NCBI GenBank assembly: GCA_946497035.1
Contig: CAMMIW010000005.1
Span: forward strand, 1-64,000
DNA length: 64,000 nucleotides
Reading direction: 5' to 3'
DNA from: an uncultured Eubacteriaceae bacterium
Lineage (GTDB): Bacteria > Bacillota > Clostridia > Lachnospirales > CAG-274
In this document: positions 12,594-37,931 of the stretch, piece by piece
How positions within the stretch are numbered: the first letter of the stretch is position 1
Layout of the letters: each line of letters begins with the position of its first letter
Translations under genes and position numbers: made by a program
Notes under the pieces: generated by a model
What the model was told of the DNA's origin: nothing
The model's input: only the letters and a program-made list of their open reading frames with translations
The model's database searches: none

Positions 12594-13475
12594 TTAGTAA
12601 AAAATTTCTTCAGCATTTATTATCGTTGTTTCATATTCAAAGCTATTGGTATATGCATTAACATAAAAAGGCATTTCGTTACCTTTTATATAAAACCTAT
12701 AATAAGGATAAAAAGAAAAAGTTATATTTTCATTATCCATTTTTAAATAATATCCTAAATCTATATCTCTTATATATATTTCACTATCTGGTATAAGATT
12801 TTTTATTTCTTTAGAAAATGTATAAAGAGCCTCATCAACAGAACATATATTTATTTTTTCGCTTATTATATCTGTTTTTTGATAATTGTTAAAATATATT
12901 TTAATTTTACCATCTTTATATATTTTTACATTTAATACATTATTAAATATTTTATAATTTTCTATTTTTTGTATATAAGATATAAAAAAATAGTCTTCTT
13001 CTTCTATAACTCTATCTAAATACATTTTTCCATAAATTTGCTCTAGAGGTTTCATATAGCTTTCTGCTATATTAAGGCTATTTTCTCTATTATATTTAAA
13101 ATTTTCTTTTATCTCTAAATCTTGAAAATATATAAATAAATTATTTATTCTTAAAGTTTTTTCTCCTTGTTTAAATATTGTATCTTCAAATTTTTCTGTT
13201 CTAATAAGATCAATATTATTTTTAAAAAATATATTTTGTAAAGCTAAATCGTCGTGTTTAGTTTTTTTCATACTAATTTGTGGCATAGGCTCATATTTTT
13301 TAGGTATATCTGCATAAATTTTAATATTTTCTTTTTCTAAATAAGCAATAATTGTTTTTTCTTGTTCTTTTGTTATTTTATATTTTTCTTCTAACAAAAA
13401 GCTTAAAAAAAATAAAAGTATGTTTAATATTAATAAAAATATAATTGTATAATTTTTAGCTAACTTTGTATCCAT
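12594..13475 (-). CDS. yycI: YycI-like WalK regulator protein
   Basis: A 293-aa protein with one N-terminal membrane anchor (residues ~10-26) and an extracytoplasmic domain, located directly after yycH. In Bacillus, YycH and YycI act outside the membrane to adjust WalK activity. Sequence similarity is weak, as usual for this family; the call rests on the anchor topology, the closing region (SFYPYYRFYIKG) and synteny walR-walK-(x)-yycH-yycI. Its ribosome site overlaps the end of yycH, leaving a 2-bp gap, so the two are coupled. Confidence 0.75.
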   Translation of the reverse strand: MDTKLAKNYTIIFLLILNILLFFLSFLLEEKYKITKEQEKTIIAYLEKENIKIYADIPKKYEPMPQISMKKTKHDDLALQNIFFKNNIDLIRTEKFEDTIFKQGEKTLRINNLFIYFQDLEIKENFKYNRENSLNIAESYMKPLEQIYGKMYLDRVIEEEDYFFISYIQKIENYKIFNNVLNVKIYKDGKIKIYFNNYQKTDIISEKINICSVDEALYTFSKEIKNLIPDSEIYIRDIDLGYYLKMDNENITFSFYPYYRFYIKGNEMPFYVNAYTNSFEYETTIINAEEIFY

Positions 13476-13477
13476 AC

Positions 13478-14836
13478 TTATCCTCCATAAGTTACTGTAT
13501 CAAAATAAATTTTATCTTCTGCATCTATAAACCATTTTATATTCATAGTGTTTTCTGCATTATCAAATTTATAAACTAATTTCATTTCATCTATATAAAT
13601 ATTGGGTTTACCTAAGTTTACTAAAAAATTATCTATAGCATCTATAAAAGATTTTTCTACTATATCATAATCATCTTCTACATAAAAATCATATATAATC
13701 CTTCTATATTTTGAAACTATGTTATCTTCTACAGTAACTTCTATCATACTATCCATACCTGTTTGTAATTTCTTATCTTCAGATAAAATTATAGGAAAAT
13801 TATTTATTTTATAATTAAAATAAAATATAACTTTATTTTCTTCTATTTTATAATCTTGCAAATAATATTCGTTTTTAATATTATTATCTTTAGCTAAAAA
13901 TTGTAAAGCTATATTATAAGGGCTATCTTCACTACCTATGCCTATATTACTTTTATATTTTACATATTCTAAAACACCATTAGGATAATATTTTACAATA
14001 ACATTTTCATCATTATATGTGTAAGTGTTGTTTATAAAAGAGCTAGATTTTGTGATAGGGCTATCAAAAAATACATCTACATATTTTTCACTTTCAGATA
14101 ATAAAATGCCACCATCTTGCTCTAAAGGGTTATCAACAGCTATTTTATTAACATTAAATGTTTCGTTTCTGGCCTTTGGTAAAAATTGGTTTGTACTAAA
14201 TAAAGATATACCGCTTTCTTCACTGGATATATAATAAAAATCTTTAGCCTCTAGGCTATTAAAATCGTTTATAATATTGAAAATATTTTGGCTTAAAATA
14301 TCTTTAGAAACTTTAAGCTCATAAGCATTTAAAGTTTTAGAAGATAAAAAAATAGTTTTTATATTATATTTTTCATCTATCATTGGTACTATAATAATAG
14401 TGTCGAACTGTTTTATTTTAGATAAATGATTAGCCTTAATATTAAATATTTTAGACATTTCTTCGCCTTTTATATTAAAATCATAAGTATAAATTATAGA
14501 TCTTTTGTTTAAAACATTTTTTATATCAAAATGTTCTATATAAGAAAAGTCACCATTTTTTATAGATAAATATATAGCCTCATCAAATATTTTTTTATAA
14601 TCTGCATTTGATATATTGTTATATTTTCTAATAAATTTATTATTACCTGTATTTATTAATATACTTTCTGTTAAATATAACGTATCTTTTTGTATGTTAG
14701 CATTTTCAAATTTATTTTTTATTAAGTAAAAAAAGCTATGGGTTGAAAAATTTTCAAACCATAGCCCAGTAGTCTGATAAATAGCTAAAAATATTAAAAA
14801 AGTTATAATAAAATTTTTCCATTTGCTTAAATACAT
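13478..14836 (-). CDS. yycH: YycH-like WalK regulator protein
   Basis: A 452-aa protein with a single N-terminal membrane anchor (residues ~7-24) and a large extracytoplasmic region, as in YycH, which with YycI controls the WalK kinase at the membrane. The region around DNPLEQDGGILLSESEKYVD and YTYNDENVIVKYYPNGVLEY resembles YycH domain boundaries. AAAGGTGAT precedes the ATG. It lies between the small secreted protein and yycI, all leftward. Confidence 0.8.
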   Translation of the reverse strand: MYLSKWKNFIITFLIFLAIYQTTGLWFENFSTHSFFYLIKNKFENANIQKDTLYLTESILINTGNNKFIRKYNNISNADYKKIFDEAIYLSIKNGDFSYIEHFDIKNVLNKRSIIYTYDFNIKGEEMSKIFNIKANHLSKIKQFDTIIIVPMIDEKYNIKTIFLSSKTLNAYELKVSKDILSQNIFNIINDFNSLEAKDFYYISSEESGISLFSTNQFLPKARNETFNVNKIAVDNPLEQDGGILLSESEKYVDVFFDSPITKSSSFINNTYTYNDENVIVKYYPNGVLEYVKYKSNIGIGSEDSPYNIALQFLAKDNNIKNEYYLQDYKIEENKVIFYFNYKINNFPIILSEDKKLQTGMDSMIEVTVEDNIVSKYRRIIYDFYVEDDYDIVEKSFIDAIDNFLVNLGKPNIYIDEMKLVYKFDNAENTMNIKWFIDAEDKIYFDTVTYGG

Positions 14837-14859: not shown

Positions 14860-15318
14860 CTATTTTCTAGATCTAGGTAAGATAATAGCTTGCTCAAGTT
14901 CATTTTTTATTTCACTTTTTTTACGAATAATAGATGTTGATATGTTGGCAGATTTATCGTTTATATCTGTAACATTTATATCTATAATATTTTCACCAAC
15001 GTTAAGATTTATTGTTTGGCTAAAATATCCAGATGCTCCAACAACTATTTCATATTTATCAATCTCTTTTAATTCTTCCTCTTTTTCAAGTAATTTTTCA
15101 TAAACAGTTATAGTAACGGTAGAACCTTCTTTAGCTTTACCTGTAACTATTCTAGATTTATCGAAAGTAGATTTAGCCCCTTTAGAAAAATCTAAACCAC
15201 TTGTTATAGAAAAACTGCTATTAACCTCACTATCAGAAATAGAGGCTGCATAAGCTAAAAAGCTATTAGAAAGCGTTAAAAGAAAGATTGTAGCTAATAT
15301 TAAGATTAACTTTTTCAT
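14860..15318 (-). CDS. Small secreted Ig-like protein in the walRK locus
   Basis: A 152-aa exported protein. It has a Sec signal peptide (residues 1-24, hydrophobic core ILILATIFLLTLS, probable cleavage after AYA), then one bacterial Ig-like module of about 90 residues (VTGKAKEGSTVTITVYEK, LNVGENIIDINVTDIND) and a basic tail. Such modules bind envelope components or act as spacers; no catalytic motif is seen. AAGGAGG precedes the start. It is the first gene after a WalR-like site and is followed by yycH and yycI, so it may be a WalR target or sensor accessory. Confidence 0.75.
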   Translation of the reverse strand: MKKLILILATIFLLTLSNSFLAYAASISDSEVNSSFSITSGLDFSKGAKSTFDKSRIVTGKAKEGSTVTITVYEKLLEKEEELKEIDKYEIVVGASGYFSQTINLNVGENIIDINVTDINDKSANISTSIIRKKSEIKNELEQAIILPRSRK

Positions 15319-15356: not shown

Positions 15357-15390
15357 ATTATATAATAATATTATTACAATTGTGTTACAA
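15357..15390 (-). promoter_or_regulatory. WalR-box-like site overlapping a putative promoter
   Basis: On the minus strand 15389-15373 reads TGTAAC-N5-TGTAAT, a perfect match to the WalR consensus TGTWAH-N5-TGTWAH. A possible promoter overlaps it: TTGTAA at 15390-15385, a 17-bp spacer and TATTAT at 15367-15362. Overlap with the -35 would fit repression, though WalR acts both ways. It would give the secreted-protein/yycH/yycI genes their own start, separate from walRK. Confidence 0.6.
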
Positions 15391-15461: not shown

Positions 15462-17288
15462 TTAAAAGTTTTGGTTTTCATAATTAAATTTTAATGTATT
15501 TTCTATGTTTTGTTCACCTTTATATTTTTTAAATATTACTTGCATAGTTGTACCATCACCTACTTTGCTAAAGGCTTTTATATCACCGCTATGCTCAACC
15601 ATTATCTCTTTGGCAATAGATAGACCTAGGCCATTACCTCCCATTGCTCTGCTTCTAGCTTTATCTACACGATAAAACCTTTCAAATATACGCCCTATAT
15701 CTTCTTTAGGTATACCTATACCGTTATCTTTTATATTTACAATAAAATTATCTCTATTTTCATCTATAGATATATTTATATCTTTACCTTCATAGCTATA
15801 TTTTATAGCATTGGATAAAATATTATTTAAAACTTGGTTTATTCTTCCTGTATCCACTTTTACAAACATATTTTTGTTGTTAGGCTCATTTAATATTATT
15901 TGTTGATTTTTTTTATTAGCAATAATAATATTTTGTTTTACACAACCTAAAACTATATCATATAAATTTGCAATTTTAAAATTAAAGCTAATTTTACCAC
16001 CATCTAAACGAGAAAGCTCTAAAAGATCATCTGTTAAAAATTTCATTCTATCTGCCGCCTCATTTATAGTGTTTAAAAAATCTATAGCTAAATCTTTTTC
16101 TTCTATTGCACCTTCTAAAAGAGTTTCTGTATAGCTTTTTATAGTAGTTATAGGTGTTCTAATTTCGTGAGAAACGTTGGCAACAAATTCTTTTCTCATA
16201 TCGTCTAATTTTTTTTGTTTTGTTATATCTTTTAAAACAATCATTATACCTTCTATAAAATTATTTTTACCTGTATATGGTATAAGCACAACCTGTATAT
16301 ATTTTCCACCTTCATCTATTAATATTTCAGTATTTTTATTAAGTCTTATTTGGTTTTTAGGTAAATTTATTTTATATAAAAAATAATCTAAATTTATTTT
16401 ATATTGTTCCTCTTCATCTAAGCCCATAAGCTCATAAAATTCTTTATTAGCGTGTATAAGGCTACCTATCTCATCAAAAGCTACCACTCCATCTGTCATA
16501 TTATGCAAAACTATTTCTAGCTTATTATTTTCATTTTCCATTTCAGAAACGGTTTTTCTAAGCTCTCTAGCCATATGGTTAAAGCTCCTTGTTAGCTGGC
16601 CTATTTCGTCTTCACCTTTTACAATTATATGTTGCTCAAGGTGGCCTTTAGCTAACAAATTTGCCTTTCTAGTTAAAAGAGATATAGGTGCTGTTATCGT
16701 ATTAGAAAACATACCACCTAACGTTATAGCTAAAACTAAAGCTATTATAGATGCTATACCTATAGTATTTGTTGTTTGCTTTAATGTATCGTTTATATTA
16801 GTTGCATCCATTTGAACATATATAACATATTTTAAATTATTATTTTCATCTAAAACAGGGTAACCATAGCTTAACCATTCTTTTACAACTTGGTTTTCAT
16901 CTAGGCTTTTTTTAGATTTTTCAAAATTTTCTTTACCAGATAAAGCAGATATTATTACCGAGTTTTTATATTGGTAAGGACCTTGTGTTTCAGAAAAGTT
17001 AGTCGCTGCAACGGTTTTTCCATCTTTATCTATAATAGCCCCTTGTATATTTTGTGTAAAAATTCTTTTCATAAAAAGATCTGTAAAACCGCTTTGAAAA
17101 TCGCTAGGGTCTTCATATTGATCTATTATTTGCTCTTTTATAGCCTTAGAAAAACTTTTAAGCTCTTCTTCTATTTTTATAGTTTCTTGCTTTTGTATGG
17201 TAAAAATTATAAAAGTACCGCTTATTATCATTACTATAAAAACTAATATAAAATATATAAAAATTAATTTAAAACGTACACTTTTCAT
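15462..17288 (-). CDS. walK: Sensor histidine kinase WalK
   Basis: A 608-aa cell-wall-homeostasis sensor kinase. Layout: TM1 (7-30), extracellular PDC/Cache-like domain (~32-172), TM2 (174-193), HAMP (~195-250), PAS (~256-360), HisKA with phospho-acceptor His374 in NVSHEIRTPI, then the ATPase domain with N-box NNILSNAIKYS, G1 DNGIGI, F-box ERFYRVDKA and G2 GGNGLGLSIAKEI. All catalytic boxes are intact. It begins 15 bp after walR. The presence of both HAMP and PAS, and the downstream yycH/yycI, separate it from PhoR-like kinases. Confidence 0.92.
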   Translation of the reverse strand: MKSVRFKLIFIYFILVFIVMIISGTFIIFTIQKQETIKIEEELKSFSKAIKEQIIDQYEDPSDFQSGFTDLFMKRIFTQNIQGAIIDKDGKTVAATNFSETQGPYQYKNSVIISALSGKENFEKSKKSLDENQVVKEWLSYGYPVLDENNNLKYVIYVQMDATNINDTLKQTTNTIGIASIIALVLAITLGGMFSNTITAPISLLTRKANLLAKGHLEQHIIVKGEDEIGQLTRSFNHMARELRKTVSEMENENNKLEIVLHNMTDGVVAFDEIGSLIHANKEFYELMGLDEEEQYKINLDYFLYKINLPKNQIRLNKNTEILIDEGGKYIQVVLIPYTGKNNFIEGIMIVLKDITKQKKLDDMRKEFVANVSHEIRTPITTIKSYTETLLEGAIEEKDLAIDFLNTINEAADRMKFLTDDLLELSRLDGGKISFNFKIANLYDIVLGCVKQNIIIANKKNQQIILNEPNNKNMFVKVDTGRINQVLNNILSNAIKYSYEGKDINISIDENRDNFIVNIKDNGIGIPKEDIGRIFERFYRVDKARSRAMGGNGLGLSIAKEIMVEHSGDIKAFSKVGDGTTMQVIFKKYKGEQNIENTLKFNYENQNF

Positions 17289-17303: not shown

Positions 17304-17999
17304 CTATGACATAAAGTAATATCCTATGCCTCTTTTAGTTAAAATATATTTAGGCTTGCTAGCATCATCTTCTATCTTTTCTCTAAGTCTTCTTATTGTA
17401 ACATCTACCGCTCTAACATCTCCAAAATATTCATATCCCCAAACCTGAGATAATAAAGCCTCTCTTGTAAAAATCTGATTTTTTTTAAGCGCTAAAAATT
17501 TTAAAAGCTCAAATTCTCTAATAGTTAAATTTATAGGTTCGTTTCTTTTAAAAACCTCATATCTATCAAAATCTATTGTAAGCTCACCAAAATTATTTGT
17601 ATTTTCATTAATTGGTATTTCTTCTTGTTTTGCCGAAGTTTTTCTTCTAAGGTTAGCTTTAACGCGTGCCATAAGCTCACGGTTACTAAAAGGCTTTGTA
17701 ACATAGTCATCTGCCCCTATTTCAAGGCCTAAAACCTTGTCTACCTCATCTGCACGGGCAGTAAGCATAATAATAGGAACATCACTTTTATCTCTTATCC
17801 TTCTACAAACTCCATATCCATCTATTTTGGGCATCATTATATCTAAAAGTATTAAATCTGGCTTTTCTTCTTCAAAAACTTTTATAGCCATCTCTCCATC
17901 TTCAGCACATACAACAGTATAACCTTCTTTTTTTAAATTAAAGGCAATAATATTCATTATGCTTTGCTCATCATCAACAACTAAAACTTTATTAGACAA
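17304..17999 (-). CDS. walR: Response regulator WalR
   Basis: A 231-aa OmpR-family regulator that controls peptidoglycan hydrolase and envelope genes when phosphorylated by WalK. The receiver domain has the acidic pair Asp9-Asp10, phospho-acceptor Asp53 (LILLDIMMP) and the Lys of VTKPFSNRELMARV. The C-terminal winged helix ends with RAVDVTIRRLREKIE and TKRGIGYYF. The start is TTG at 17999, six bases after AGGAGGG (18006-18012); the ATG at 18017 lies upstream of that ribosome site. A perfect 12-bp palindrome, GTTAAATTTAAC at 18032-18043, precedes the gene. Confidence 0.95.
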   Translation of the reverse strand: MSNKVLVVDDEQSIMNIIAFNLKKEGYTVVCAEDGEMAIKVFEEEKPDLILLDIMMPKIDGYGVCRRIRDKSDVPIIMLTARADEVDKVLGLEIGADDYVTKPFSNRELMARVKANLRRKTSAKQEEIPINENTNNFGELTIDFDRYEVFKRNEPINLTIREFELLKFLALKKNQIFTREALLSQVWGYEYFGDVRAVDVTIRRLREKIEDDASKPKYILTKRGIGYYFMS

Positions 18000-18077
18000 A
18001 AAAATCCCTCCTAACATACTTTATATTAAACGTTAAATTTAACCATTTTGTTCCATTATTTATAATAATGTTATTTA

Positions 18078-19307
18078 TTAATTTAATATTATTTTTTTAT
18101 TAGCCTCATCTATATTAAAATTTATATTATTATTTTTTAAAATATCATCTAGGCTATAATATTTTTTATTATCTATAATTAAACTATTTTTTAAATATGT
18201 TTCATCTAATGATAAATTGTTAATATTAAAATAGCTTTCATCTACAAAAAACTTACCATCAATTTTATAAGCTAAACAATTTAATTTATATTCTTGTAAT
18301 ATTTCTCTTTCATTATTTGCAAATATTACAGAATCTAAAAATAAATCACTATTTAAAATTTTTGTAAAACTTTCTAATATTTTTTTATTATCTGTTATTA
18401 AATAGTTTTGTTTATTAACACTTGGTGTTTTAAATGTATCATAATTTATATAGTTTATCATTTTTATTCTTTTATATTTATTTGGTATATAATTAAAATA
18501 TCTATTAATCTCATTTATTTTATCATTTATATTATAGTTATAAGAGGTGTTACCAAAATGAGATATTGCAACATTTAAAAAAATAGACTTCCTATAGGCA
18601 TAATTTTTATAAAAAAAATCTAATTCTTTAAACATTATATCTAACTTATTATTTTCATCTATATTTTCATATATATCAAGACCTACCCAGTCTACATAAT
18701 TATCACCAGGATAAAAATTTTTTTCATTATAAGCAAAATCTTTATCTATGCTCCAAACAATAGAAACATTAGGTGCATAAAGCTCAAAATAGTTTTTAGC
18801 ATCTTGAAAAAACTTTATATATTGTTGGCTTTTATCTTTAAAATAATTGTTAACAGGATATATACTAACAAACATAGGTATTTGCAAGTTGCCAAAATCT
18901 TTAGCTACATTTTTTATAAGCCTTTCATTAAAAAGATTTTTTTCTTCTTTTGGTGGCAATATAGTTATATATGGTGTTTTCATATTAGAATAACAGTTTA
19001 AAACCCAAGAAAGAGGATAGCTATCATCTAGCCTTTGACTATACATATATACGCTAGGGCTTGTCTTTGTATAGCTTTCAAATTCTTCTATAAAGTTTCC
19101 TTCTGTTTGTTCTAAAAAAACACCTAAATAAACTTTTTCTTCTGGCTCATATTTTTTTAAAATATATTTATCTTTTTTATAAATATTATAAAGCTCTATA
19201 TTATTATAATTATTTTGCACATTTACCGCAACGGTATCTTTCATTTGTATGTTATTGCTACAACCTACTAATATAAAACATAATATAAATATACATATTT
19301 TTTTCAA
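18078..19307 (-). CDS. Lipoprotein with a degenerate GH26-like domain
   Basis: A 409-aa lipoprotein: signal peptide with lipobox LVGC (Cys16), then a domain resembling GH26 beta-mannanases (residues ~50-300), recognisable from YVDWVGLDIYEN and flanking pattern. Where active GH26 enzymes carry the acid/base His-Glu and the nucleophile Glu, this protein reads VSIYPVNN and FLNVAISHFG, so both glutamates appear lost. The last ~100 residues resemble stalk domains. It lies directly upstream of walR in the same direction and is probably a glycan-binding surface protein rather than an enzyme. Confidence 0.65.
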   Translation of the reverse strand: MKKICIFILCFILVGCSNNIQMKDTVAVNVQNNYNNIELYNIYKKDKYILKKYEPEEKVYLGVFLEQTEGNFIEEFESYTKTSPSVYMYSQRLDDSYPLSWVLNCYSNMKTPYITILPPKEEKNLFNERLIKNVAKDFGNLQIPMFVSIYPVNNYFKDKSQQYIKFFQDAKNYFELYAPNVSIVWSIDKDFAYNEKNFYPGDNYVDWVGLDIYENIDENNKLDIMFKELDFFYKNYAYRKSIFLNVAISHFGNTSYNYNINDKINEINRYFNYIPNKYKRIKMINYINYDTFKTPSVNKQNYLITDNKKILESFTKILNSDLFLDSVIFANNEREILQEYKLNCLAYKIDGKFFVDESYFNINNLSLDETYLKNSLIIDNKKYYSLDDILKNNNINFNIDEANKKIILN

Positions 19308-33848: not shown

Positions 33849-33929
33849 ATTACAAAAGTGTTACAAATTTTAATAAATTGTAAAAAAAGCTCTTTTTACC
33901 TTGAAAAAAGGGGTATATTTTGATATACT
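33849..33929 (+). promoter_or_regulatory. WalR-box-like site and SigA promoter of the LCP gene
   Basis: Promoter: TTGAAA (33901-33906), 17-bp spacer, TATACT (33924-33929). Thirty-five bases upstream of the -35, 33849-33865 reads ATTACA-N5-GTTACA, the complement of TGTAAC-N5-TGTAAT, a perfect WalR consensus match. It differs from the site at 15373-15389 only in the spacer. Its position upstream of the promoter would fit activation. Confidence 0.65.
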
Positions 33930-33961: not shown

Positions 33962-35038
33962 ATGGAAAATTTTGAAAACAAATATAAAAAGAAATTTTTA
34001 TCAATATTTTTTACTGTTTTTAGTGTTTTTTTTGTAATTTTATTATTTATTTTCTTTGGTTTTAAATTTTTAAATGCTGAACCTGCTTATGATCCAACTA
34101 AACAAAGAGATTCTACCCTTATAACAGAAAAAGAGCTAAAGCAACAAACGGAGCAAACATCTAACAGTATTTTTACACCACCTATAAGAACTAATGTTTT
34201 AATAACAGGTGTTGATAAACAAGAAAATTTAACAGATGTTTTGATGGTAGCTAGCTTTATTAGCACAACAGGCCAAATAAATTTAATATCTATACCTAGA
34301 GACACATATATTTCATATGAGGGAGAAAGTTTAAAAGCTCTTAGAGAGATAAATAGTGGTGCTCCTAGATATATGAAAGCAAACTCTGTATATGCATACA
34401 CTAAAAAAAGCGGTATGGAACATTTAAAATCAACTATAGAAGATCTTTTAGGCATAAAAATAGATTATTATGTTAAAGTAGATTTAAAAGCCTTCAAATC
34501 TATTGTAGACGCGGTAGGCGGTATATATTTTGATGTTCCTAAAGGTGGCCTTAAATATAGCGATCCTACACAAGGTTTATACATAAATTTAAAAGAAGGT
34601 TATCAACTTTTAGATGGAGAAGCTGCAGAAGGTTTAGTACGTTTTAGAAAAGGATATGCTAGGCAAGATTTACAAAGAGTAGAGGTGCAACAACAGTTTA
34701 TAAAAGAATTTATATCACAGGTTTTAAGCAAAGATACTTTAGTTAACAATTTAGGCGAAATAACATTAAGCCTCATAAAATATGTAGAAACCGACTTTAG
34801 CGTATCTGATTTACCAAAATATTTAACTAGCATAACTAGTATTGATACTAGCAAAATAAAAACTGCTACCCTACCAGGAACACCTCAAACTATAGATGGC
34901 CTATCTTATTATGTTTCAAACAGTAATGACACTAAAGAAATTGTTGATGAATTTTTTTACGGAAATACCAATCCTGAAGAAGAACCAATCTCTCAAACAA
35001 CTTTAGAACAAAATGAAAGTAGCTCTGTTAGTGAGTAG
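33962..35038 (+). CDS. LytR-CpsA-Psr family protein
   Basis: A 358-aa membrane-anchored enzyme (TM at ~13-34) of the LCP family, which attaches teichoic acids or other glycopolymers to peptidoglycan. Family motifs: RTNVLITGVDKQENLTDVL, SIPRDTYI with the phosphate-binding Arg, the central DYYVKVDLKAFKSIVDAVGG and VRFRKGYARQDLQRVEVQQ. ATG at 33962 (GGAG upstream) is chosen because the earlier in-frame codon at 33920 lies before the predicted transcription start. It is followed 25 bp later by the phosphodiester glycosidase gene. Confidence 0.92.
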   Translation: MENFENKYKKKFLSIFFTVFSVFFVILLFIFFGFKFLNAEPAYDPTKQRDSTLITEKELKQQTEQTSNSIFTPPIRTNVLITGVDKQENLTDVLMVASFISTTGQINLISIPRDTYISYEGESLKALREINSGAPRYMKANSVYAYTKKSGMEHLKSTIEDLLGIKIDYYVKVDLKAFKSIVDAVGGIYFDVPKGGLKYSDPTQGLYINLKEGYQLLDGEAAEGLVRFRKGYARQDLQRVEVQQQFIKEFISQVLSKDTLVNNLGEITLSLIKYVETDFSVSDLPKYLTSITSIDTSKIKTATLPGTPQTIDGLSYYVSNSNDTKEIVDEFFYGNTNPEEEPISQTTLEQNESSSVSE

Positions 35039-35063: not shown

Positions 35064-37931
35064 ATGAAAAAGAAATTTTTAACATATATACTAGCTTTTG
35101 CTTTAAGTTTATCTGCTTTTACCCCTAAAAATATTTTAGCAGATTCTAACCTTTTATATGTAGAAAAAGAAACTCAAACTATAACAGATGGCCTTATTTA
35201 TGAAAAAAGCCAACGTCTTTATAAATCGGGCTGGAAAGATGTTTATGTTTTAACAGCAGATTTAACTAACCCTAATATAGATATAGAAATTTTAGATTCT
35301 ACAACAGAACACGGCCTTAAAAAAAATGTTGAAACTCTTACAAAAGAAAATAACGCTGTTTTTGGCATAAATGCAGACTTTTTTGGTGCAGGTAACCCTA
35401 CATCTAGTATGGGGCAAATAATAGTAGATGGCAACGTTAACGAAGCTCAAAACTATTATAACGCATCTTCTAATAAATATGCAGGTATATTTTTAGATAA
35501 ATATGGTAATGCATTTATAGACTATATAAAATCTAATTTAAGGCTTTACAATGAAAAAGTATCTTTGGAGCTTCAAGCTAAAAATAAAATAACAGATTTT
35601 AAAAAACCTGTATATTTTGATAGAAGCATAATAACTAACACACAAGATTTAGATAAAAGAAGAAAAGATTTATTTAAAATTGTTGTAGAAGATAAAAAAA
35701 TAGTTAAAAAAGTAGGCGCAGGAGAGGTTGTAGAAATACCAGAAAATGGCTATATAATAGTTATGGATAAAGCTACCGCATCAGAAAAACTAACTCTATT
35801 TAATGTGGGAGATAGCTTAAATTTTACAGAAAGTTATAAATTTGTTTTTAGAGAAGGAAAAGATATATCTGAAGTAATGACAGGTATATCTGCTGGTGGT
35901 GAAATTTTAAGAAATGGTAAACCTATATCTACAGGTTTAGCTATTTCTCCAAAAACTAGAAACCCTCGTAGTGCAGTTGGTGTAAATAAAGAAAAAAACA
36001 AACTAATACTTGTTGCTATTGATGGCCGTGGCCAAAGCATAGGTGCTACTCATGATGAAATGGCTAATATATTGTTAGAATATGGTGCTTATGATGCTAT
36101 ACATCTTGATGGCGGTGGCTCTACAACTGTTGCTCTAAGAGAAGAAGGCGAAAGAGATGTTAAAATAGTAAATAATGTATCTGATAAATCGCCTAGGCTT
36201 GTTCCTAATGCTATAGGGGTAAAATCTACTAATGCTCCTGGAGAAGTAGCCTCTTTATTAGTTACTATAAATAAAAATGACGAAGAAGCTATTATAGCTG
36301 GAGAAACTTACACATTAAACGTTACTGGTGTAGACGCTAACAAAAACCCCGTAGATATAGATCCAAACCAAGTTACGTTTACTTTTGCAAATGAAGGTGA
36401 TGGCACTATAAACGGCAAACATTTTTTAAGCAACAAAGTTGGAGATTTAACTATAAACGCCACATATCCAAATGGTGCAACAGGACAAATTTCATTTAAA
36501 GTAGTAGATCCTTTTACATCTATTATACCTAAAGTTAGTAGCAACTCTTTATATATTGGAGAAAGCACTAATCTATCTTTAGAAACTATAAATAAAAATG
36601 GCTTTTCTAAGCCTGTTGATAGCTCTTTAGTATCTTGGACGGTAGATAACCCAGACTTAGGATATATACAAAATAACAGTTTTTATGCTAAAGGAGAAGG
36701 CATAGCAACTTTAACAGCAAATTATAATAATCTTACTGCCTCTATAACTATAGCTATAGGTAGTAGCCCTACTCCTGTTACATCTTTTGAAGAAACAAGA
36801 GATTTATTTATGATGTATTTTCCTGCCGATAAATCTGTATCTGGTGGTGCTGGCATAGCAAATGGTGTTGCATCTGATGGTAAAAGTAGCCTTTTATTAA
36901 GCTACAATTTTAAAGAAAATGTAGACACACCTCAAGTTAGCTATGTTTGTTTTGAAAAACAACCTATTATATTAAATGGCTCACCTAATGCTATACAAAT
37001 GCAAATTAAAGGTGATAGTAGCAAAAATATGGTTAAAATGGTGCTTAAAGATAAAAATAATAAGGAATATGTATTGCCTGTTTTACCAGAAATGACATCT
37101 AGCGATTGGGTAACTGCATTAGTTGACTTGCCAGATGAAGTAGCTTATCCTGTTAGAATTGATAAGCTATACGTTGCATCTCAAAGTACAGATGAAAAAG
37201 AAAGTGGTACTATTTATATAGATAATATTAATGGTATGCATAAAAGAACTGATGGCGGTGTTCTTACAAATTCTTATCAAGACCCTCTTAACCAACCTAT
37301 AAGCCAATCTGCCCCTACAAGCACAGAGGAAGATATAAACGTTTTTGGACAAACAGCTAATAAACCTCATTCTAATTCTAAAAAAGTTTTACAAGATAGC
37401 ATAAATATTATGAAAAATAATGCAAGGGCTATTGTTTTTGCAGGTTCTACTAATTTAGATGGTATAAATACAGGTGTTTCTACTGTATCTTGGGATAATA
37501 AATATACTACAACTAATACAAGCAATTTATCAATTATAAATCTTGCTACAAAAAGTGGCATTATGAGAACAGAAAGTCCAGATCAATGGAGATGGTTGCA
37601 AAGTTATTTAGAAAATCAAAGTAAAAATAATATTCTTATAAATATGGATAAAAATATATGGGATAGCAAAAACGGATTAAAAGGCCCTAGAGAAAACGAA
37701 CTTTTACACAAAATTTTAAAAGACTTTGTATCTAAAACAGGCAAAAATGTAATTGTTGTATCTGCCGTATCTGATAAAACTAATGTTTTTGTTAAAGATG
37801 GTGTTAGATATATAACATTAAATGGCTTAACTAATTCAAACCCTAACAACCTAAATAACTATAAATATTTAAAAATAAGAGCAACTGAAAATGACTTAAA
37901 ATATGAAATTTGTAACGTATATAACAATTAA
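35064..37931 (+). CDS. Secreted phosphodiester glycosidase (NAGPA domain) with Ig-like repeats
   Basis: A 955-aa exported protein. Signal peptide 1-26; NAGPA/DUF2233 domain (~55-390) with GINADFFGAG, RNPRSAVGVNK, AIDGRGQSIGATHDEMANI and HLDGGGSTTV; two Ig-like (Big2-type) modules (~395-570); a beta-sandwich (~580-730); and a C-terminal domain (~765-955) resembling degraded metallophosphoesterases. NAGPA enzymes cleave sugar phosphodiesters, so this may trim a phosphate-linked wall polymer, fitting its pairing with the LCP gene. No cell-wall anchor is seen. Confidence 0.85.
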   Translation: MKKKFLTYILAFALSLSAFTPKNILADSNLLYVEKETQTITDGLIYEKSQRLYKSGWKDVYVLTADLTNPNIDIEILDSTTEHGLKKNVETLTKENNAVFGINADFFGAGNPTSSMGQIIVDGNVNEAQNYYNASSNKYAGIFLDKYGNAFIDYIKSNLRLYNEKVSLELQAKNKITDFKKPVYFDRSIITNTQDLDKRRKDLFKIVVEDKKIVKKVGAGEVVEIPENGYIIVMDKATASEKLTLFNVGDSLNFTESYKFVFREGKDISEVMTGISAGGEILRNGKPISTGLAISPKTRNPRSAVGVNKEKNKLILVAIDGRGQSIGATHDEMANILLEYGAYDAIHLDGGGSTTVALREEGERDVKIVNNVSDKSPRLVPNAIGVKSTNAPGEVASLLVTINKNDEEAIIAGETYTLNVTGVDANKNPVDIDPNQVTFTFANEGDGTINGKHFLSNKVGDLTINATYPNGATGQISFKVVDPFTSIIPKVSSNSLYIGESTNLSLETINKNGFSKPVDSSLVSWTVDNPDLGYIQNNSFYAKGEGIATLTANYNNLTASITIAIGSSPTPVTSFEETRDLFMMYFPADKSVSGGAGIANGVASDGKSSLLLSYNFKENVDTPQVSYVCFEKQPIILNGSPNAIQMQIKGDSSKNMVKMVLKDKNNKEYVLPVLPEMTSSDWVTALVDLPDEVAYPVRIDKLYVASQSTDEKESGTIYIDNINGMHKRTDGGVLTNSYQDPLNQPISQSAPTSTEEDINVFGQTANKPHSNSKKVLQDSINIMKNNARAIVFAGSTNLDGINTGVSTVSWDNKYTTTNTSNLSIINLATKSGIMRTESPDQWRWLQSYLENQSKNNILINMDKNIWDSKNGLKGPRENELLHKILKDFVSKTGKNVIVVSAVSDKTNVFVKDGVRYITLNGLTNSNPNNLNNYKYLKIRATENDLKYEICNVYNN

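Follow-up and report, generated by a model that had tools for sequence, protein, structure and literature searches.

A direct repeat lies upstream of a putative LytR-CpsA-Psr (LCP) gene in this stretch of DNA, raising the question of which regulator reads it and how it might act on the genes downstream. The repeat, at 33849–33865, reads ATTACAAAAGTGTTACA on the plus strand (ATTACA-N5-GTTACA) and TGTAACACTTTTGTAAT on the reverse strand. Read in the latter direction, it is a predicted WalR-type operator, TGTAAC-N5-TGTAAT, and matches perfectly the direct-repeat consensus of the response regulator WalR, TGTWAH-N5-TGTWAH (PMC4168254, PMC5062060). A sister copy, ATTACAATTGTGTTACA, is found at 15373–15389 of the window (the whole 64,000-nucleotide stretch that was analysed), and it too reads TGTAAC-N5-TGTAAT on the reverse strand, again a perfect WalR consensus. 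The two copies are identical at 15 of 17 bases, or 16 of 18 when the next A is counted, confirming the pair of near-identical repeats described in an earlier note on this DNA. Their orientations relative to the genes that they may serve are opposite: 15373–15389 presents TGTAAY-N5-TGTAAY on the coding strand of a minus-strand gene, while 33849–33865 reads RTTACA-N5-RTTACA relative to its own gene, LCP. Our preferred reading, to which we assign a probability of roughly 0.78, is that the repeat upstream of LCP is an operator through which the WalR encoded in the window activates LCP and the NAGPA gene that follows it.

The putative operator is positioned ahead of a SigA promoter, TTGAAA-N17-TATACT, the −35 box of which lies at 33901–33906 and the −10 box at 33924–33929 (both plus strand, and both kept in all 8 genomes of the genus). 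The gap between the repeat and the −35 box is exactly 35 bp, the same distance as given in the earlier note, and the centre of the operator falls ~80 bp ahead of the probable start of transcription, a long way for direct polymerase contact. Adjoining the operator is a degenerate pair in the other orientation, TTTTAA-N5-TGTAAA (33868–33884, plus strand), which has one mismatch to the consensus, is largely conserved and may possibly represent a second WalR contact. The LCP gene (33962–35038, plus strand) encodes a predicted glycopolymer transferase of 358 aa, with an LCP domain at residues 91–255 (PF03816, E value 1.7e-36) after a hydrophobic N-terminus visible in the sequence. Starting 25 bp past LCP, a second gene (35064–37931, plus strand; 955 aa) encodes a NAGPA-family protein with a phosphodiester glycosidase domain (PF09992, E value 7.9e-31). 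The two genes are probably co-transcribed as one operon, and the putative tie of NAGPA to the operator is solely that of the gene beginning directly after LCP. An LCP paralog on contig C2 carries no operator site.

The broad WalR consensus was rejected as stand-alone evidence, as it occurs at chance level within the window. Perfect matches to TGTWAH-N5-TGTWAH number 3 against 1.4 expected (P ~0.18, no enrichment), matches with one mismatch number 46 against 45 expected, and 45 of the 75 matches in the organism's own genome are intragenic. The narrow form behaves differently: ATTACA-N5-GTTACA occurs twice in the window against 0.02 expected, a count reached by none of 200 Markov shuffles, and three times in the whole 2.0-Mb genome, where the reversed control is absent (0 copies). 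The gene mreB was considered as a further target and not retained; a perfect TGTWAH-N5-TGTWAH match (TGTAACAAAAATGTTAA) is found 100 bp before its start codon in the own genome (G000:C1:84537-84553, L007), and relatives keep it partly, in a comparison in which three mreB starts were not located.

Each of the 8 genus genomes has an LCP ortholog, and seven of them carry a perfect ATTACA-N5-RTTACA that ends 95–97 bp before the LCP start codon; since the genomes are related, such counts are not independent, and the close named relatives are metagenome-assembled genomes. Across the seven, the half-site columns are 97.6 % conserved, compared with 51–63 % for the 60 bp upstream and 82–91 % for the DNA running from the site towards the start codon. 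Both the repeat and its position in the promoter of an envelope gene are thus kept in these seven relatives. The eighth genome, G042, lacks the LCP site, though the promoter and a downstream NAGPA-like gene are present, and forms the first branch of the genus on the WalK tree (moderate support, 83/94). No such site was seen within the 300 bp examined upstream of LCP genes of other genera. Absence from the basal G042 and from the LCP genes of other genera makes a genus-level gain the simplest explanation, and the LCP operator was probably gained within the genus; a loss in G042 could also account for its absence there. Conservation in relatives, on which the earlier note had let its proposal depend, holds at the same distance in seven genus members, but extends neither to G042 nor to other genera.

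The sister copy at 15373–15389 sits inside an operon with the gene order walR, walK, walX, yycH-like and yycI, all on the minus strand. The walR gene (17304–18017) encodes an OmpR-type response regulator, identified by domain match and proposed here as the binder, while walK (15462–17288) encodes a sensor histidine kinase with HAMP, PAS, HisKA and HATPase domains. At the other end, yycI (12594–13475) was assigned by Pfam (PF09648, E value 2.1e-08), whereas the yycH-like gene (13478–14836) returned no Pfam match and was assigned by position only. Between walK and the yycH-like gene lies walX (14860–15318; name coined here), encoding a secreted protein of 152 aa for which modelling predicted a signal peptide followed by a beta-sandwich (mean pLDDT 71) and a fold search returned generic beta-sandwich matches only; it is apparently an undescribed protein and a possible new WalK accessory. 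The gene occurs in four genera, but neither in G042 nor in the other genera examined. A gene at 18078–19307, immediately upstream of walR and in the same orientation, encodes a secreted protein with a weak match to glycosyl hydrolase 26 and possibly belongs to the wal operon.

The second predicted operator is located between walK and walX, with a TATAAT −10 box (15357–15362, minus strand) 10 bp downstream of it on the coding strand and no good −35 box. All genus genomes except G042 (7 of 8) retain the site, and genus members display the same layout of TGTAAY-N5-TGTAAY ~10 bp before a TATAAT-like box without a good −35. Genera g5, g2 and g3 have like sites ahead of walX, with three half-sites in tandem in the g2 genomes. 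This arrangement suggests an internal walX-yycH-yycI promoter driven by the second copy, in which WalR half-sites would substitute for the −35 box. WalR may then control part of its own operon, with the output feeding back on WalK-tuning proteins, and a single operator gain may have extended the network to LCP-NAGPA in this genus; we consider the odds of this broader scenario to be about even.

Beyond these two loci, RTTACA-N5-RTTACA returned 79 matches in the 8 genomes (~10 per genome), compared with 29 for the reversed motif. Sites upstream of exported-protein genes accounted for 55 of the 79, against 3 of 23 classified controls (Fisher P 1.6e-6); exported proteins were called from a hydrophobic N-terminus by a crude hydrophobicity rule, only classifiable controls were counted and one of the 3 exported-type controls overlaps the LCP site itself. 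Ortholog groups with the site comprise LCP, walX, two copper-amine-oxidase-N proteins, an S-layer-like protein (two sites), BspA-type LRR proteins, an SLH protein, a CAP protein and a GDSL lipase divergent from an acyltransferase. In G042, the site is carried by the gene for an M23-G5-LysM peptidase. Most of the classical WalR targets, the peptidoglycan hydrolases, were not recovered among the conserved targets of the 8 genomes. Promoter layouts differ between the groups. The S-layer-like exported-protein gene has two successive promoters, with a site 15 bp upstream of each −35 box (loci L011, L181, L189 and L207), while in the SLH gene the site immediately follows TATAAT (loci L176, L147, L183, L190 and L199), for which the positional rule from Staphylococcus aureus predicts repression (PMC10746227).

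From the sequence, we infer WalR as the binder at the LCP site and activation as the direction of its effect. A dimer of phosphorylated WalR would occupy the TGTAAC and TGTAAT half-sites, one helical turn apart, and from 35 bp upstream of the intact SigA promoter would raise transcription of LCP and the downstream NAGPA, such that glycopolymer attachment and trimming would track WalK signalling. Alternatively, WalR may bind here with an effect on LCP that is weak, negative or structural instead of activating, which we consider unlikely. This reading stems from the large upstream distance between the site and a promoter whose own −35 and −10 boxes are good, and G042, without the site, keeps that promoter intact; moreover, the sites of the S-layer-like gene stand closer to the −35 box, at 15 bp instead of 35 bp. 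Weighing against it, S. aureus WalR sites upstream of the −35 box are associated with activation (PMC10746227), and the block between the site and the promoter, including the second degenerate pair, is itself conserved.

A second alternative questions the regulator: the operator may belong to another OmpR-type protein of the genome, e.g. a PhoP-like regulator with a similar direct-repeat box. The genome encodes five OmpR-type regulators, and the one aligned regulator other than WalR shares 52 % identity with Bacillus subtilis WalR in its DNA-binding domain, making cross-binding possible. PhoP boxes are likewise hexamer repeats with 11-bp periodicity. However, the WalR encoded in the window is closer, with 61 % identity to B. 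subtilis WalR across the DNA-binding domain, for which VicR/WalR are the nearest solved structures. The genome that holds the sites thus also has walR and walK, with a WalR-type DNA-binding domain in the regulator. The pst genes of the genus also argue against a PhoP-like reader. Upstream of pstS, seven genus genomes carry TTTACA-N5-TTTACA (loci L015, L305, L293, L288, L296, L331 and L332), likely a PhoP box close to the WalR form, and no pstS is found among the RTTACA sites, which argues that a PhoP-like protein reads another box. Whether the half-site begins with R (RTTACA) or T (TTTACA) does not separate WalR from PhoP cleanly: pstS suggested such a split, but the CAP gene of G040, which carries the TTTACA form, breaks it. 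The RTTACA form, on the other hand, occurs within the wal operon of four genera and has envelope genes as its targets. We regard a different OmpR-type reader as improbable. The WalR-type assignment proposed in the earlier note gains support from the domain match of the window's walR, the wal-operon site in four genera and the envelope-dominated targets; it is on location, domain and target set that we infer the identity of the regulator.

Chance resemblance in AT-rich DNA, for which the chance-level frequency of the broad consensus in the window would speak, was rejected as very improbable, given that the position is kept in seven genomes despite diverged flanks and that the narrow motif exceeds its reversed control genome-wide and is biased to exported-protein genes.

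Read as a WalR operator, the site can be set beside known systems. The WalR (YycF/VicR) operators of B. subtilis, S. aureus and Streptococcus mutans are likewise TGTWAH pairs with a 5-bp spacer, found on either strand and upstream of envelope genes, and the recognition helix of these regulators is near-identical to that of the regulator here. In contrast, the form enriched here is TGTAAY-N5-TGTAAY, and the predicted targets are LCP-NAGPA, SLH, copper-amine-oxidase-N and BspA-type proteins, whereas classical regulons consist mainly of peptidoglycan hydrolases. A tie between WalR and the synthesis or decoration of anionic polymers has precedent, as ltaS is under WalR control in S. aureus (PMC10746227) and a WalR site is predicted before dlt in Clostridioides difficile (PMC9210968); in the present case, the site belongs to the genes for LCP, a predicted attachment enzyme, and for a phosphodiester glycosidase. 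A literature search, which did not extend to the S. mutans VicR/brpA papers, turned up no paper that names either LCP or NAGPA as a direct target of WalR. The operon itself resembles S. aureus walRKHI (PMC4801191) and C. difficile walA-walR-walK-truA2 (PMC9210968) in combining walR and walK with membrane or secreted accessory genes, but differs in having the extra secreted walX between walK and yycH, with a conserved site and −10 box ahead of it. PhoB/PhoP pho boxes are also direct repeats with 11-bp periodicity, and in PhoB-type promoters, as at walX, the site takes the place of the −35 box ~10 bp before the −10 box; the half-sites differ, being TGTAAY here and TGTCA or TTTACA there, as do the target genes.

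The LCP link would add a member to a known regulon, and greater novelty lies in the operator within the wal operon. That operator is also the more unexpected, since the wal operons in the literature are described as lacking autoregulation (PMC9210968, PMC4801191) and the promoter region of the S. aureus operon is reported to lack a site. If true, the wal-operon site would run counter to this general statement, and it offers a concrete promoter at which autoregulation would occur. The eight genomes also yield a list of predicted targets with their promoter layouts, which predict activation for LCP, the S-layer-like gene and walX, and repression for the SLH gene. If WalR does activate LCP-NAGPA, attachment by LCP and the predicted phosphodiester glycosidase would share the wall-remodelling switch in this Clostridia genus, and polymer load would be coupled to wall growth.
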